The notes under the pieces: generated by a model
What the model was told of the DNA's origin: nothing
Database searches by the model: none
The model's input: only the letters and a program-made list of their open reading frames with translations
Part shown: positions 21,532 to 60,853 of the stretch, one piece after another
Layout: every line of letters begins with the position of its first letter
How positions within the stretch are numbered: the first letter of the stretch is position 1
Position numbers and translations under genes: made by a program
Assembly: GCF_947500995.1 (NCBI RefSeq)
Contig: NZ_CANMUA010000003.1
Span: 248,001-312,000 of the forward strand
Source: an uncultured Serinicoccus sp.
GTDB taxonomy: Bacteria; Actinomycetota; Actinomycetes; Actinomycetales; Dermatophilaceae
DNA length: 64,000 nt
Direction: 5' to 3'

Positions 21532-22722
21532 ATGGGTGACCACCGGTTCAGGGGCCGTGCCCTGCTGCTGCTCGCGGCCCTGCCGCTCGCGCTCGGCGGA
21601 TGCGCGACCGGCTCGGGCGAGGACGGCTCGGGCGAGGACGCCGCGGCGGGGGGCTCCCCAGCTGCCGCCGACGCCGGCGACGCGGGCCCGACGCTGGACG
21701 TCGAGGTCGTCGCCGACGGGCTGGCGCTGCCGTGGGACGTGCAGCTGCTGCCCGGCGGCACCCCGCTGGTGACCGAGCGCGGGGGCCGCCTGCTGGCGCT
21801 GGAGGACGGCCAGGTGCGGGAGGTCGCGATCGACCTCCCCGACCTCTTCGTCGGCTCCGAGTCCGGGCTCATGGGGATGGCGCTCTCGCCGGAGGGTGAC
21901 ACGGCATACCTCTGCCACGCGACGCAGTCCGGCGGGCAGCCGCAGGACGTCCGGGTCACCCGGTGGACCCTCGACGACGGCGCGACCGGCGCGAGCGCCG
22001 ACGGCGTGGTGGTGGACGGTATGCCGATCACCTCCGGGCGGCACGGCGGGTGCCGGCTGCTGCTGGAGGACGACACGCTCTACGTCGGCACGGGGGACGC
22101 GGCCGACGAGACCAACCCGCAGTCGCTGGACTCCCTCGGCGGCAAGGTGCTGGCGGTGACACCCGAGGGGGAGCCGCTGGCGGACGCGCCGTTCGTCGAC
22201 GGCGACCCGCGGATCCTCACCTACGGCCACCGCAACGTTCAGGGGCTCGCCGCGCAGCCGGGCAGCGGCACGATCTGGTCGGTGGAGCACGGCTCGTCGG
22301 TCGACGACGAGGTCAACGTGCTGGAGCCGGGGGCGAACTACGGCTGGGCGCCGGGCCCGGGCTACGACGAGTCGGTGCCGATGACCGACACCGACCGCTT
22401 CCCCGAGGCGGTCGAGGCGGCGTGGAGCAGCGGTGACCGGACGCACGCGACGAGCGGTGCCGCCTTCCTCGAGGGCGAGCAGTGGGGCGCCTGGGAGGGG
22501 TCGCTCGCCGTCGCCGAGCTCAAGGACTCCGGCGTCGGCGTGCTGCGGGTGGACGGCGAGGAGGTCGTCGGCGAGGACCGGATGGCCGAGCTCGAGGGCG
22601 ACTACGGCCGGCTGCGCTCGCTCACCCTGGACGACGACGGGGCGCTGTGGGTGACCACCTCGAACGGCGAGGGCGACGTCGTCCTCCGCGTCACCCCCCG
22701 GCCCGCACCGGACACGCGCTAG
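21532..22722 (+). CDS. PQQ-type glucose/sorbosone dehydrogenase-like lipoprotein
   Basis: Exported protein of 396 residues. The N-terminus is a lipoprotein signal (RALLLLAALPLALGGCATG, lipobox LGGC with Cys about 23) followed by a Gly/Ser/Asp-rich linker, then the six-bladed propeller of soluble glucose dehydrogenase-like proteins (LALPWDVQLLPGGTPLVTER, the ILTYGHRNVQGLA site and PGANYGWA). These enzymes oxidise sugars with bound PQQ, though many actinobacterial members are uncharacterised. The last residues (RPAPDTR) are encoded by the first unit of a 22-bp repeat. Confidence 0.86.
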   Translation: MGDHRFRGRALLLLAALPLALGGCATGSGEDGSGEDAAAGGSPAAADAGDAGPTLDVEVVADGLALPWDVQLLPGGTPLVTERGGRLLALEDGQVREVAIDLPDLFVGSESGLMGMALSPEGDTAYLCHATQSGGQPQDVRVTRWTLDDGATGASADGVVVDGMPITSGRHGGCRLLLEDDTLYVGTGDAADETNPQSLDSLGGKVLAVTPEGEPLADAPFVDGDPRILTYGHRNVQGLAAQPGSGTIWSVEHGSSVDDEVNVLEPGANYGWAPGPGYDESVPMTDTDRFPEAVEAAWSSGDRTHATSGAAFLEGEQWGAWEGSLAVAELKDSGVGVLRVDGEEVVGEDRMAELEGDYGRLRSLTLDDDGALWVTTSNGEGDVVLRVTPRPAPDTR

Positions 22723-22877
22723 GACCGCACCGGACGCGCCATCAGACCACACCGGACGCGCGGTCAGACCACACCGGACGCACAGTCAGACCACACCGGA
22801 CGCGCGGTCAGACCACACCGGACGCGCGGTCAGACCACACCGGACGCGCGGTCAGACCACACCGGACCCACGGTCAG
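22706..22877. repeat. 22-bp tandem repeat spanning convergent stop codons (8 units)
   Basis: Units beginning CACCGGACGCGCGGTCAG start at 22706, 22728, 22750, 22772, 22794, 22816, 22838 and 22860, exactly 22 bp apart. The first unit contains the TAG stop (22720-22722) of the sugar-dehydrogenase-like gene, and the last one supplies the stop of the glycosyltransferase on the other strand (22874-22876). No non-repetitive intergenic sequence remains. The same unit and period recur at 54227. There are no unique spacers, so it is not a CRISPR array. Confidence 0.9.
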
Positions 22878-53225: not shown

Positions 53226-54243
53226 GCTGGAGGCGATCACCCTCGCGGCGGGCACCGCGGGAGCGGTCGGGCTGGCCGGCGCCGCGCTGACGCTGCTCGT
53301 GGCCCGGCGCTCGCCGGCGGCGGCGACCCTGCTGGGGCCGGTGGTGGGGGTGGCCAGCGTCGCCGCCGGGGTGGTCGTGACCACGCGCGCGATGTTCCTG
53401 TCCGAGCACGACGCGACGCTCATCGCGCTGGTGCTGCTGGCGGCGGCGCCGGTGGCCCTGGCGATCGGGGTCCTGCTCTTCCGCAGCGTGCGGCGGCTGG
53501 ACCGGCGGGCGCAGCAACGGCTGGCCGACGAGCAGCGCGAGCTGGCGCTCGCCCGCTCCCGGCAGGACATGATCACCTGGGCCTCGCACGACCTGCGGAC
53601 CCCGCTGTCCTCGATCAGGGTGATGGCCGAGGCCCTCGAGGACGGCCTCGTCACCGACCACGACGACTACCACCGCCGCATCCGCGCCGAGGCCGACCGG
53701 ATGACCGTCATGGTGGACGACCTGCTCGAGCTCAGCCGGCTGCGGAGTGCCTCCCCCGCAGACCCGGGGGAGGTGGTGGACCTGGCGGACGTCGCCGCGG
53801 CCGTGGTGGCCGGCCAGCAGCCGGTGGCGGAGCAGCAGCAGGTCCGCGTGCGGCTGACCGGCGACGGGCCGGCGCCGGTGCGGGCGGTCGCCGGCGAGCT
53901 CGACCGGGTCGTGGCCAACGTGGTGAGCAATGCCGTCCGGGAGTCGGCGGCCGGGTCCGAGGTCGTGGTGCACGTCAGGGCGGACCCGGTCGCGGAGGAG
54001 GTCGTGCTCCACGTCGACGACGCCTGCGGGGGGCTGGGGGAGGAGGCCCTCGCCCATGCCTTCGAGCCCGGGTGGCGCGGCAGCAGCGCCCGGTCGGCGG
54101 GCGCCGGGGTCGGCGTGGGCCTGACGATCGCCCACGCCCTCGTCGAGCGCAGCGGCGGCACGATCACGCTGGCCGACCACGGGCCCGGCTGCCGCGTCCG
54201 GATCGCCCTCCCGCGCCACACCCCCGCACCGGACGCGCGGTAG
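53209..54243 (+). CDS. sensor histidine kinase (HisKA class)
   Basis: Kinase of 344 residues. Two or three hydrophobic segments (ITLAAGTAGAVGLAGAALTLLV onward), then the H-box ITWASHDLRTPLSSIRVMAEAL, N-box VVANVVSNAVRES and G-boxes VDDACGGLGEEAL and GVGVGLTIAHALVERSGGTI. It has no separate extracellular domain. ATG 53209 or 53215 could start it; the gene overlaps the regulator by 17 nt. The last residues TPAPDAR are encoded by the first unit of the 22-bp repeat, as at 22706. Confidence 0.91.
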   Translation: MPMRPELEAITLAAGTAGAVGLAGAALTLLVARRSPAAATLLGPVVGVASVAAGVVVTTRAMFLSEHDATLIALVLLAAAPVALAIGVLLFRSVRRLDRRAQQRLADEQRELALARSRQDMITWASHDLRTPLSSIRVMAEALEDGLVTDHDDYHRRIRAEADRMTVMVDDLLELSRLRSASPADPGEVVDLADVAAAVVAGQQPVAEQQQVRVRLTGDGPAPVRAVAGELDRVVANVVSNAVRESAAGSEVVVHVRADPVAEEVVLHVDDACGGLGEEALAHAFEPGWRGSSARSAGAGVGVGLTIAHALVERSGGTITLADHGPGCRVRIALPRHTPAPDAR

Positions 54244-54284
54244 GGCACCACCGGACGCGCGCTCGTGCCGCACCGGACGTGCGG
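54227..54284. repeat. 22-bp repeat, second locus (3 units)
   Basis: CACCGGACGCGCGG (54227), CACCGGACGCGCGC (54249) and CACCGGACGTGCGG (54271) occur at exact 22-bp steps with variable 8-nt remainders. The first unit contains the end of the kinase gene and its TAG stop; the array runs to within 15 bp of the stop of the convergent methyltransferase gene. It is the same repeat family, same period and same placement as 22706-22877. Confidence 0.85.
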
Positions 54285-54299
54285 CAGGGACAACTGCCG

Positions 54300-58465: not shown

Positions 58466-59703
58466 GCGCCGTCACCGAGCGGGTCCGCATACCGTCCGAG
58501 ATCTGGATCCTCGTCGGTGCGTCCTTCGTCATCGCGGTCGGGTTCGGCCTGGTGTCACCGGTGCTGCCGGGGTTCGCGCGCTCCTTCGACGTCGGCGCCA
58601 CCGCGGCGACGGTCGTGGTCTCGGCCTTCGCGTTCTGCCGGCTGGTCTTCGCGCCGGTGGGCGGCCGGCTGGTGCAGCGCCTGGGCGAGCGTCCGGTCTA
58701 TCTCACCGGCCTGCTCATCGTGGCCGTCTCCTCCTTCGCGACGGCGTACGCGCAGACCTACTGGCAGCTCCTCGTCTTCCGCGGCCTCGGCGGGGTCGGC
58801 TCGACGATGTTCACGATCTCGGCGATCGCCCTGGTGGTGCGGCTGGCGCCGCCGACGATCCGGGGGCGGGTCAGCTCGCTGTGGGGGAGCTCGTTCATCA
58901 TCGGGTCGATGCTCGGCCCCGTCATCGGTGGTCTCATCGCCGGGTGGGGGATGCGGTTGCCCTTCGTCGTGTATGCCGTCGCGCTCGTCGTCGCGGCCCT
59001 GGTCGTGGGTCTGGGGCTGGGCGGGGCGAGGCTCCGGCCGCCGCCGGGGGAGGAGGACCGGCCGGTCCTCACGGTGCGGGAGGCGCTGGGCGACCGGGCC
59101 TACCGGGCGGCGCTGGCGTGCGGCGTGGCCAACGGGTGGGCCAACCTCGGGGTGCGGATGGCGGTGATCCCGCTGCTGGCGGCGGCCGTGCTGGACGAAC
59201 CGTGGGTGGCCGGCGCGACGCTCACCGCCGCGGCGCTGGGCACCGCGATCACGCTGCAGGTCACCGGCCGCCTGGCCGACCGGGTGGGTCGACGCCCGCT
59301 GGTCATCGCTGGGATGGTCACCTCTGGACTGTCGCTGGGGGTGCTCGGGCTGAGCCTGCTCCCTGGTCTGGCCGTCGTCGCCTCGCTCGCGGTGCTGCTG
59401 GGGCTCAGCTTCGTCTCCGGGGTGGGGGCGGGCTTCGTCAACCCGGCGCAGCAGGCGGCCGTCGCCGACATCGTGGGGCAGGAGCGCAAGGGCGGCACGG
59501 TGCTGTCCACCTACCAGATGGCCACCGACGTCGGCGTCATCGTCGGACCGGTGCTCATCGGGGCCGTGGTCGACCTCGTCGGCTTCGGTGCCGCCCTGGC
59601 CGTGACCGGGATCGTCAGCGTGCTGGGCGCGGCGGTGTGGTTCCGGGCGCCGGAGACCCTCGGTCGCGACGCCGGCGCCAGTCCTGCGCCAGCATCCCCA
59701 TGA
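58462..59703 (+). CDS. MFS transporter (drug efflux type)
   Basis: Membrane protein of 413 residues with twelve hydrophobic segments. The A-motif between helices 2 and 3 is APVGGRLVQRLGERPVYLTG and the later GRLADRVGRRPLVIAG is its counterpart in the second half, typical of the DHA1 multidrug group. GTG start overlaps the ATPase stop. The 3' end overlaps the convergent GNAT gene by 89 bp. Confidence 0.88.
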   Translation: MSAVTERVRIPSEIWILVGASFVIAVGFGLVSPVLPGFARSFDVGATAATVVVSAFAFCRLVFAPVGGRLVQRLGERPVYLTGLLIVAVSSFATAYAQTYWQLLVFRGLGGVGSTMFTISAIALVVRLAPPTIRGRVSSLWGSSFIIGSMLGPVIGGLIAGWGMRLPFVVYAVALVVAALVVGLGLGGARLRPPPGEEDRPVLTVREALGDRAYRAALACGVANGWANLGVRMAVIPLLAAAVLDEPWVAGATLTAAALGTAITLQVTGRLADRVGRRPLVIAGMVTSGLSLGVLGLSLLPGLAVVASLAVLLGLSFVSGVGAGFVNPAQQAAVADIVGQERKGGTVLSTYQMATDVGVIVGPVLIGAVVDLVGFGAALAVTGIVSVLGAAVWFRAPETLGRDAGASPAPASP

Positions 59704-60238
59704 CGTGGCAGTCGACCCAGCGGTCGGCATACCGCAGCGCCTCCCGCTTCGTCCCCTCGAGCACGAAGCCGACCTTCTCGTAGACCCGGCGGGCGCGCGG
59801 GTTGAACGCGTAAACCTCGAGCTCGACCCGGTGCAGCCCCAGGACGTCGAAGGCGTGCCCGACCGCGAGACGTGTCGCCTCGGTGCCGAGACCGCGGTCG
59901 CGTGCGCCCCCCAGCCAGATGCGGAAGCCGATGGAGGCGTTGTCGGGGTCGTGGTCGAGCAGCACCGCCTCCCCGGCCACCTGCCCCGTGCCGAGGTCGA
60001 CCACCGCCCAGACCACCCGGTCGGTGTCGTCGGCCCAGCGGGCGTAGACCTCCTGCAGCTGCTCGACGGTCCACGGGTCGCCCGTGGTCTCGGCGTCGTC
60101 GTGGACGGAGCCGGTGAGCCGGCCCACCTCCGGGTCACGCATCAGCGCGTGCAGCCGCACGACGTCCGGGGCGGTGACGGGTCGGAGCTCGACCAGGTCT
60201 CCGGTCAGCGTGGGGGTGTCGGTGGGCAACGCGGGCAC
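59615..60238 (-). CDS. GNAT-family N-acetyltransferase (RimJ/RimL-like)
   Basis: Protein of 207 residues: LTGDLVELRPVTAPDVVRLH starts the RimJ-type fold, IGFRIWLGGARDRGLGTEAT is the acetyl-CoA pyrophosphate loop, and VYAFNPRARRVYEKVGFVLE GT the C-terminal half. Acceptors include protein N-termini and amino-sugars or antibiotics. The last 29 codons overlap the MFS gene on the opposite strand, so the two mRNAs have complementary 3' ends. Confidence 0.87.
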   Translation of the reverse strand: MPALPTDTPTLTGDLVELRPVTAPDVVRLHALMRDPEVGRLTGSVHDDAETTGDPWTVEQLQEVYARWADDTDRVVWAVVDLGTGQVAGEAVLLDHDPDNASIGFRIWLGGARDRGLGTEATRLAVGHAFDVLGLHRVELEVYAFNPRARRVYEKVGFVLEGTKREALRYADRWVDCHVMGMLAQDWRRRRDRGSPAPGTTPPRPAR

Positions 60239-60544
60239 CGGGCCGATGCTACTGAGCCGCGTCGTGGGCGCCAGTCATTTTCCGGCACCTCCCGACAGAT
60301 GCACCGGCCGAGACGTCACACTGAGTCGGATGCTGAATCAGTGGCGGGCTGATTCTGGCCGTGGATCACTGGCGCGGTGACTCGAGTGGTGCATCATCGG
60401 CGGGTTGATTCGGGTGGTGGGTCAGTGGCGGGCTGATTCGGGGGGTGGATCAGTGTGACGTCTGCGGACAGGGTGGGGTCGGAAGTCGTCGACACCCTGG
60501 AACGCTTGCGGCCGGGGCCGTCGATCACCTCATACGCTGCAGGC
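60239..60544. other. 306-bp intergenic region without a clear gene
   Basis: This divergent interval holds a 28-bp-period array of stem-loops at 60335-60457 and, before it, GCACCTCCCGACAGATGCACC, for which I see no function. After the array comes a GTG-initiated frame (from 60455) in phase with the RraB-like gene, which would extend it by 30 residues; I consider that unlikely. No tRNA-like structure is visible. Confidence 0.5.
60335..60457. repeat. 28-bp tandem array of stem-loops
   Basis: Successive units start at about 60335, 60363, 60391 and 60419, with a partial fifth at 60447. Unit 1 is GAATCAG-TGGCGGG-CTGATTC. Unit 2 keeps pairing with CAC/GTG in place of CAG/CTG. Units 3 and 4 have ATCA/TGAT and GTCAG/CTGAT arms around CGGCGGGT or TGGCGGG. 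The 7- to 8-nt connectors resemble GGGTGGTG. There are no unique spacers, so this is not CRISPR. Confidence 0.85.
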
Positions 60545-60853
60545 GTGACCACCGCACAGCCCCCTCGCCCCGGCAGTGAGCACCTCGTCGCCATGCCGGA
60601 CCGCGCGGAGGCCGAGGCCGTCGCCGAGGATCTGGACGAGGAGGGCTTCCGCCAGGTGCGAGTCGTGCCCGAGGGCGAGAGCCGACGGGGGCAGGGAGAG
60701 TCCGCGTGGGTCGTGCACGTCCGCGACACCCGGTTGCCGGACGCGGCCGGGGGCGGGGCCTACGAGGCGTTGCGGGAGCGGTTCACCGACCTGGCCCGCG
60801 AGCACGACGGGTGGTACGACGAGCCGGGCGACCCCCGGCCCGCCACGCGCTGA
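60545..60853 (+). CDS. RraB-like (ribonuclease E inhibitor family) protein
   Basis: Small acidic protein of 102 residues with AEAEAVAEDLDEEGFRQVRV VPEGES and SAWVVHVRDTRLPD followed by YEALRERFTDLAREHDGWYD EPG. The pattern resembles actinobacterial proteins annotated as regulator of ribonuclease activity B; I am moderately sure. The GTG at 60545 is chosen, since the GTG at 60455 would include repeat-derived sequence. Confidence 0.6.
   Translation: MTTAQPPRPGSEHLVAMPDRAEAEAVAEDLDEEGFRQVRVVPEGESRRGQGESAWVVHVRDTRLPDAAGGGAYEALRERFTDLAREHDGWYDEPGDPRPATR

Follow-up and report, generated by a model that had tools for sequence, protein, structure and literature searches.

A 28-bp-period palindrome array in Serinicoccus as a candidate tandem operator of an autoregulated XRE-type protein

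Introduction

Short palindromes repeated at a fixed step between two divergent genes raise the question of what keeps them in place: pairing within DNA or RNA, a protein that binds them, or the dispersal of the repeat itself. Here we address this question for an array in an uncultured Serinicoccus sp. (contig NZ_CANMUA010000003.1), within a window of 64,000 nucleotides (contig positions 248,001 to 312,000) to which all coordinates refer. A sequence-only reading of this window had described a 28-bp-period array at 60335-60457, placed it in a regulatory position between divergent GNAT and RraB-like genes, and proposed selection either on the pairing of its arms or on a dyad-binding protein.

Architecture of the element and the putative promoters beside it

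The features of the locus are as follows.

59615-60238, minus strand: GNAT acetyltransferase gene (PF13302)
60246-60251, minus strand: TAGCAT, putative -10 box for leaderless GNAT transcription; the same in five of five species
60311-60463, no strand: whole element, inverted ends and five 28-bp units; same architecture in 15 elements of five species
60311-60324, plus strand: left terminal inverted repeat AGACGTCACACTGA; cap 99% conserved among orthologues
60322-60340, no strand: dyad 1, TGAGTC-N7-GAATCA; exact match to the order-wide core CACTGANNC-N7-GNNTCAGTG at 60319-60343
60350-60368, no strand: dyad 2, TGATTC-N7-GGATCA
60378-60396, no strand: dyad 3, TGACTC-N7-GCATCA
60406-60424, no strand: dyad 4, TGATTC-N7-GGGTCA
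60434-60452, no strand: dyad 5, TGATTC-N7-GGATCA
60450-60463, minus strand: right terminal inverted repeat (TCAGTGTGACGTCT on the plus strand)
60533-60538, plus strand: TACGCT, putative -10 box for leaderless transcription of the RraB-like gene; found in five of five species
60545-60853, plus strand: RraB-like gene (PF06877), its start taken from the conserved TACGCT-N6-GTG

The element is 153 bp long and ends in perfect 14-bp inverted repeats (AGACGTCACACTGA/TCAGTGTGACGTCT), inside which five dyads of the form TGANNC-N7-GNNTCA follow each other at steps of exactly 28 bp. Read in register, it opens with GACGTCACNN and continues with five units TGANNC-N7-GNNTCA-N9, the cap GTGACGTC taking the place of the last N9; the N9 spacers mostly carry GGCG or CGCC inside. 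TRF reports a tandem array at 60321-60455 (period 28, 4.8 copies, score 144; steps 28, 28, 28), and the pattern ATCANTGGCGNGNTGA, with up to two mismatches, gives 5 matches (4 of them inside the array) where 0.87 are expected. By these three measures (TRF, exact steps and pattern count) the array described by the sequence-only reading is real, but the extent given there covers only the interior of a larger element bounded by inverted repeats. Its divergent neighbours are confirmed by Pfam (PF13302; PF06877 with 26.8 bits at a cut-off of 23.3), and the regulatory position that it proposed holds for this copy, with the -10-like boxes of both genes lying outside the element.

These boxes have the form TANNNT and are conserved 6-7 bases ahead of GTG starts (60236-60251 and 60533-60547). 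On the GNAT side, TAGCAT-N7-GTG is conserved in five of five species, with a GNAT start codon other than GTG in one; on the RraB side, TACGCT-N6-GTG occurs in all five element carriers and TACCCT-N6-GTG in species without the element. A scan for the sigma-70 consensus found no promoter, and the promoters proposed here follow from conservation. As conserved -10-like boxes are followed by GTG starts on both sides, both genes are apparently leaderless, which would place the element upstream of both putative starts and outside either transcript.

The window contains two further arrays, at 22706-22877 (7.8 copies) and 54227-54289 (2.9 copies), both built from a 22-bp unit starting with CACCGGACGCGCGGT.

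Three syntenic arrays in Serinicoccus

A genome-wide search for the unit, as proposed by the sequence-only reading, yielded three such elements in the window genome. When a sequence model of the element ends was applied to 188 genomes of the family, five genomes displayed exactly three elements each, and the remaining genomes placed in the same genus displayed no convincing one. Alignment of the flanks assigns the elements to identical syntenic sites A, B and C in five of five species (15 of 15 elements). Array B is the GNAT/RraB array of this window, array C precedes a gene for an XRE-type protein (see below), and array A lies in a further intergenic region. Elements are 151 or 179 bp long (two of them with one additional base), which corresponds to 5 or 6 units; length differences between orthologous sites amount to whole units. 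Three element-free species have the same divergent GNAT-RraB pair, with an intergenic region of only about 100 bp. Identity among orthologues amounts to 99% in the cap, 97% in the skeleton TGA..C / G..TCA, 65% at other element positions and 51% in the ungapped flank.

No insertion at a new site was found among the five species compared, all of which share the same three sites. In an exact scan for the terminal inverted repeats across 84,980 species, all matches with the right spacing belong to Serinicoccus; those with wrong spacing were taken as chance. A search of phages, plasmids and viral contigs gave no match, and a phage or plasmid origin was rejected on this ground.

Pairing of the arms

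The main argument of the sequence-only reading was that the arms differ between units but still pair. Units 1 and 2 fit this description, whereas unit 3 shows a T-T mismatch at the position in question. Across the family, this position pairs in 33 of 57 units, compared with 30.2 when partners are shuffled (p 0.18). For the long global hairpin predicted by folding, the arms of one element are paired at 44.7% versus 44.8% after swapping between elements (P 0.55) in one comparison, and at 47.4% versus 46.4% (P 0.36) in the other. Since neither the local dyads nor the global hairpin covary in Serinicoccus, selection acts on sequence and spacing. This removes the argument from pairing, and selection on pairing is unsupported in Serinicoccus. 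The other option raised at the time, a dyad-binding protein, is well supported, with the XRE family described below as the predicted candidate.

A palindrome family across the order

A 25-bp core, CACTGANNC-N7-GNNTCAGTG, is common to the palindromes of several genera. Among 396 genomes of the order, the core is present in 2 to 26 copies in nine, and as a single copy in five others and the window genome; a control search with the reversed core was nearly empty, and a sample of the phylum outside the order gave only two lone matches. The unit in Serinicoccus consists of the 25-bp core plus about 3 bp, and that of a second genus, which has chains of 30-bp period with caps CTACGTCAC, of 25 plus 5. 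A third genus has single palindromes CTACGTCACTGANNC-N7-GNNTCAGTGACGTAG together with tandem arrays of them at 63-66 bp. Outer arms in these other genera vary by genus, yet their palindromic symmetry extends to 37-48 bp; inside the core, the inner NN positions covary (according to a statistic that ignores phylogeny).

Gene orientation around 63 intergenic copies of other genera was taken from gene calls by a simple codon-usage script. Of these copies 21 are convergent, 27 co-directional and 15 divergent, as compared with 14, 41 and 33 background gaps, respectively, and co-directional copies are closer to a 3' end in 19 of 23 cases. None of the genes adjoining arrays A or B recurs beside copies in other genera.

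Four loci have tandem palindromes with a period of 63-66 bp; as their spacers are near-identical, the look is CRISPR-like but without varied spacers. At six loci of one genus, palindrome sites are apparently common to the species, divergent promoters included, so that palindrome positions seem to be conserved in that genus too.

A candidate partner protein of the XRE/HTH_3 type

A recurring XRE-type HTH protein was found among the genes flanking divergent palindrome copies. Each carrier genus examined has a member of this family next to one of its copies; in all five Serinicoccus species this copy is the one at site C. The Serinicoccus site-C protein, an HTH-GRRFPAH protein, displays only PF01381 (HTH_3) in Pfam; in its C-terminal GRRFPAH region, outside the HTH, neither Pfam nor PDB gave a match, and what NCBIfam, PADLOC and PHROGs contributed lay almost entirely in the HTH region. 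A literature search for the XRE/palindrome family found nothing. Within the family the Serinicoccus protein is a divergent member (32-34% identity), and among solved structures HigA and HipB are the nearest HTH relatives. The ORFs after its gene are on the opposite strand, and no toxin gene of the kind found in a HipBA module lies behind it in the same operon.

The family was identified after the palindrome core had been searched in the order. Its profile matches 18 of the 396 genomes at E<1e-40, among them the window genome and every one of the nine genomes with multiple copies. Of the five genomes with a lone copy, one has a match and the other four do not. The probability of this overlap by chance would be about 1e-13 for independent genomes, which these are not, but three families are involved.

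At each of the 15 best loci inspected, a palindrome precedes the XRE gene and none follows it; arm matches near the gene reach 13.1/14 upstream versus 9.7/14 downstream, the latter being about chance. A genus-specific palindrome precedes the gene wherever upstream DNA is present (two carrier contigs end at or near the gene). In protein-positive genomes without the exact core, a search that made no use of the core found variant palindromes before the gene (CACTGCTCC, CACTGAACG, CACTGCTCG and others). Two XRE paralogues have their own palindrome versions upstream, with different outer arms, and more distant XRE proteins have no such palindromes. An HTH_3 regulator gene directly downstream of the palindromes agrees with the arrangement of a HipB-like autoregulatory operator system.

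The recognition helix carries Gln in 13 of 14 proteins behind TGA-type palindromes versus 0 of 4 behind TGC-type palindromes (Fisher p about 0.002). Repressors of the 434 and lambda types are known to contact adenine through Gln.

Several XRE proteins, at five loci, end in a possibly metal-binding, cysteine-rich tail (e.g. CxCxxEC...CxCQCEP), which is absent in Serinicoccus members. In locus L369, an XRE homologue with in-frame stops follows a different, AT-rich palindrome, GCTTGCAAATTGCTG...CAGCAATTTGCAAGC, upstream of 1501.

Discussion

Based on this dataset, we hypothesize, with a probability of about 0.7, that the element consists of tandem operators for an autoregulated, HipB-like XRE/HTH_3 protein. 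This builds on the computed anatomy and phasing of the array, its three sites, the constraint on the skeleton without pairing, the association of gene and palindrome, and the match between Gln and adenine. The site-C protein would most likely bind the TGANNC-N7-GNNTCA dyads, one dimer on each, so that five or six dimers would stand in a row, 28 bp apart, between the special GACGTCAC caps at either end. It would control its own gene via array C; arrays of the same kind precede the two divergent promoters of GNAT and the RraB-like gene (array B) and lie in a further intergenic region (array A). Binding may be cooperative and change the transcription of GNAT and/or RraB, which are likely additional targets. 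As both -10 boxes lie downstream of the array, activation or looping is a better fit than obstruction of the core promoter.

The promoter of HipB's own operon contains four TATCC-N8-GGATA operators, to which HipB binds cooperatively (PMC3920265). The likeness would lie in an HTH_3 dimer and in several cooperative palindromic operators, with a spacer of 7-8 bp, before the protein's own gene. On the other hand, the Serinicoccus gene is without a co-transcribed toxin, the GRRFPAH region is unlike HipB, and the arrays are dispersed to other loci.

Some observations speak against operators. The copies of other genera differ from ordinary operators in their 3' and convergent placement, and their palindromic outer arms and covarying NN positions exceed the needs of a plain dimer footprint. 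Moreover, arrays A and B share no neighbour with other genera, and the Serinicoccus XRE protein is divergent. The dispersed copies at 3' ends in other genera make a REP-like or chromosome-organising role possible, and, given their number, promoter regulation may not be the only function of the XRE protein.

Across an actinobacterial order, an unexplained repeat now has a candidate binding protein, with related gene-plus-palindrome pairs in several families of the order. The change of palindrome and recognition helix from genus to genus constitutes a natural experiment on the co-evolution of regulator and operator, and the dispersed 3'-end copies raise the question of whether an HTH protein may maintain REP-like repeats without a transposase.

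A dispersed palindrome of the REP/MITE/BOX type appears unlikely. Such a palindrome would spread between intergenic sites with help, direct or indirect, from the XRE protein or some other enzyme, and would be largely neutral for the host. The intergenic, 3'-biased and genus-specific copies, in some genera in tandem with duplicated spacers, fit such an origin, and one gene with the same palindrome recalls REP/REPIN sequences and their RAYT gene (PMC3116915), where dispersed intergenic genus-specific palindromes likewise accompany one dedicated gene. However, the gene found here encodes an HTH protein, the palindromes are upstream of it only and never downstream, and copy number is low. No Y1 transposase was found (PF01797 in 0 of 21 genomes, tested carriers included; controls matched), and a REP/RAYT system was rejected, as this Y1 (HUH) transposase is absent and the palindromes do not flank the gene on either side alike. 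In Serinicoccus, the restriction to three copies, whose sites are shared by all five species, and the strong constraint on the skeleton also argue against neutral spread. Pneumococcal BOX elements (PMC3049150) are similarly modular, with fixed ends, a variable number of internal repeats and strong pairing potential, but they occupy many sites with slow new insertion, whereas the three copies here are fixed, syntenic, constrained and linked to a regulator gene.

A combination of both ideas is speculative and rather doubtful. REP-like dispersal would be run by the HTH regulator with its uncharacterised C-terminal region, not by a Y1 transposase; the operator palindrome would be copied to intergenic sites, palindrome and recognition helix would co-evolve by genus, and in Serinicoccus the system would have been domesticated as three fixed multi-dimer arrays.

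That a long hairpin works in a transcript, as attenuator, bidirectional terminator or processing signal, is very improbable. Predicted folds are very stable on both strands (z about -4 to -13), and the convergent bias and NN covariation of other genera would agree with a structured RNA or terminator. In Serinicoccus, however, covariation is lacking both locally and globally, and, as the arms of one element pair no better than swapped arms, the stable fold appears as a by-product of the self-complementary skeleton. Furthermore, the array contains no GC-rich stem followed by a T-tract and has no match in Rfam, and it lies upstream of both putative leaderless starts.

Least probable of all are chromosome-organising sites, at which the XRE protein would structure or segregate DNA from a few dispersed arrays and not regulate the neighbouring genes: low copy number, dispersal, one dedicated protein for palindromic sites and the deficit of divergent-promoter sites against background in other genera agree with it, but one copy stands before the protein's own gene at every inspected locus.
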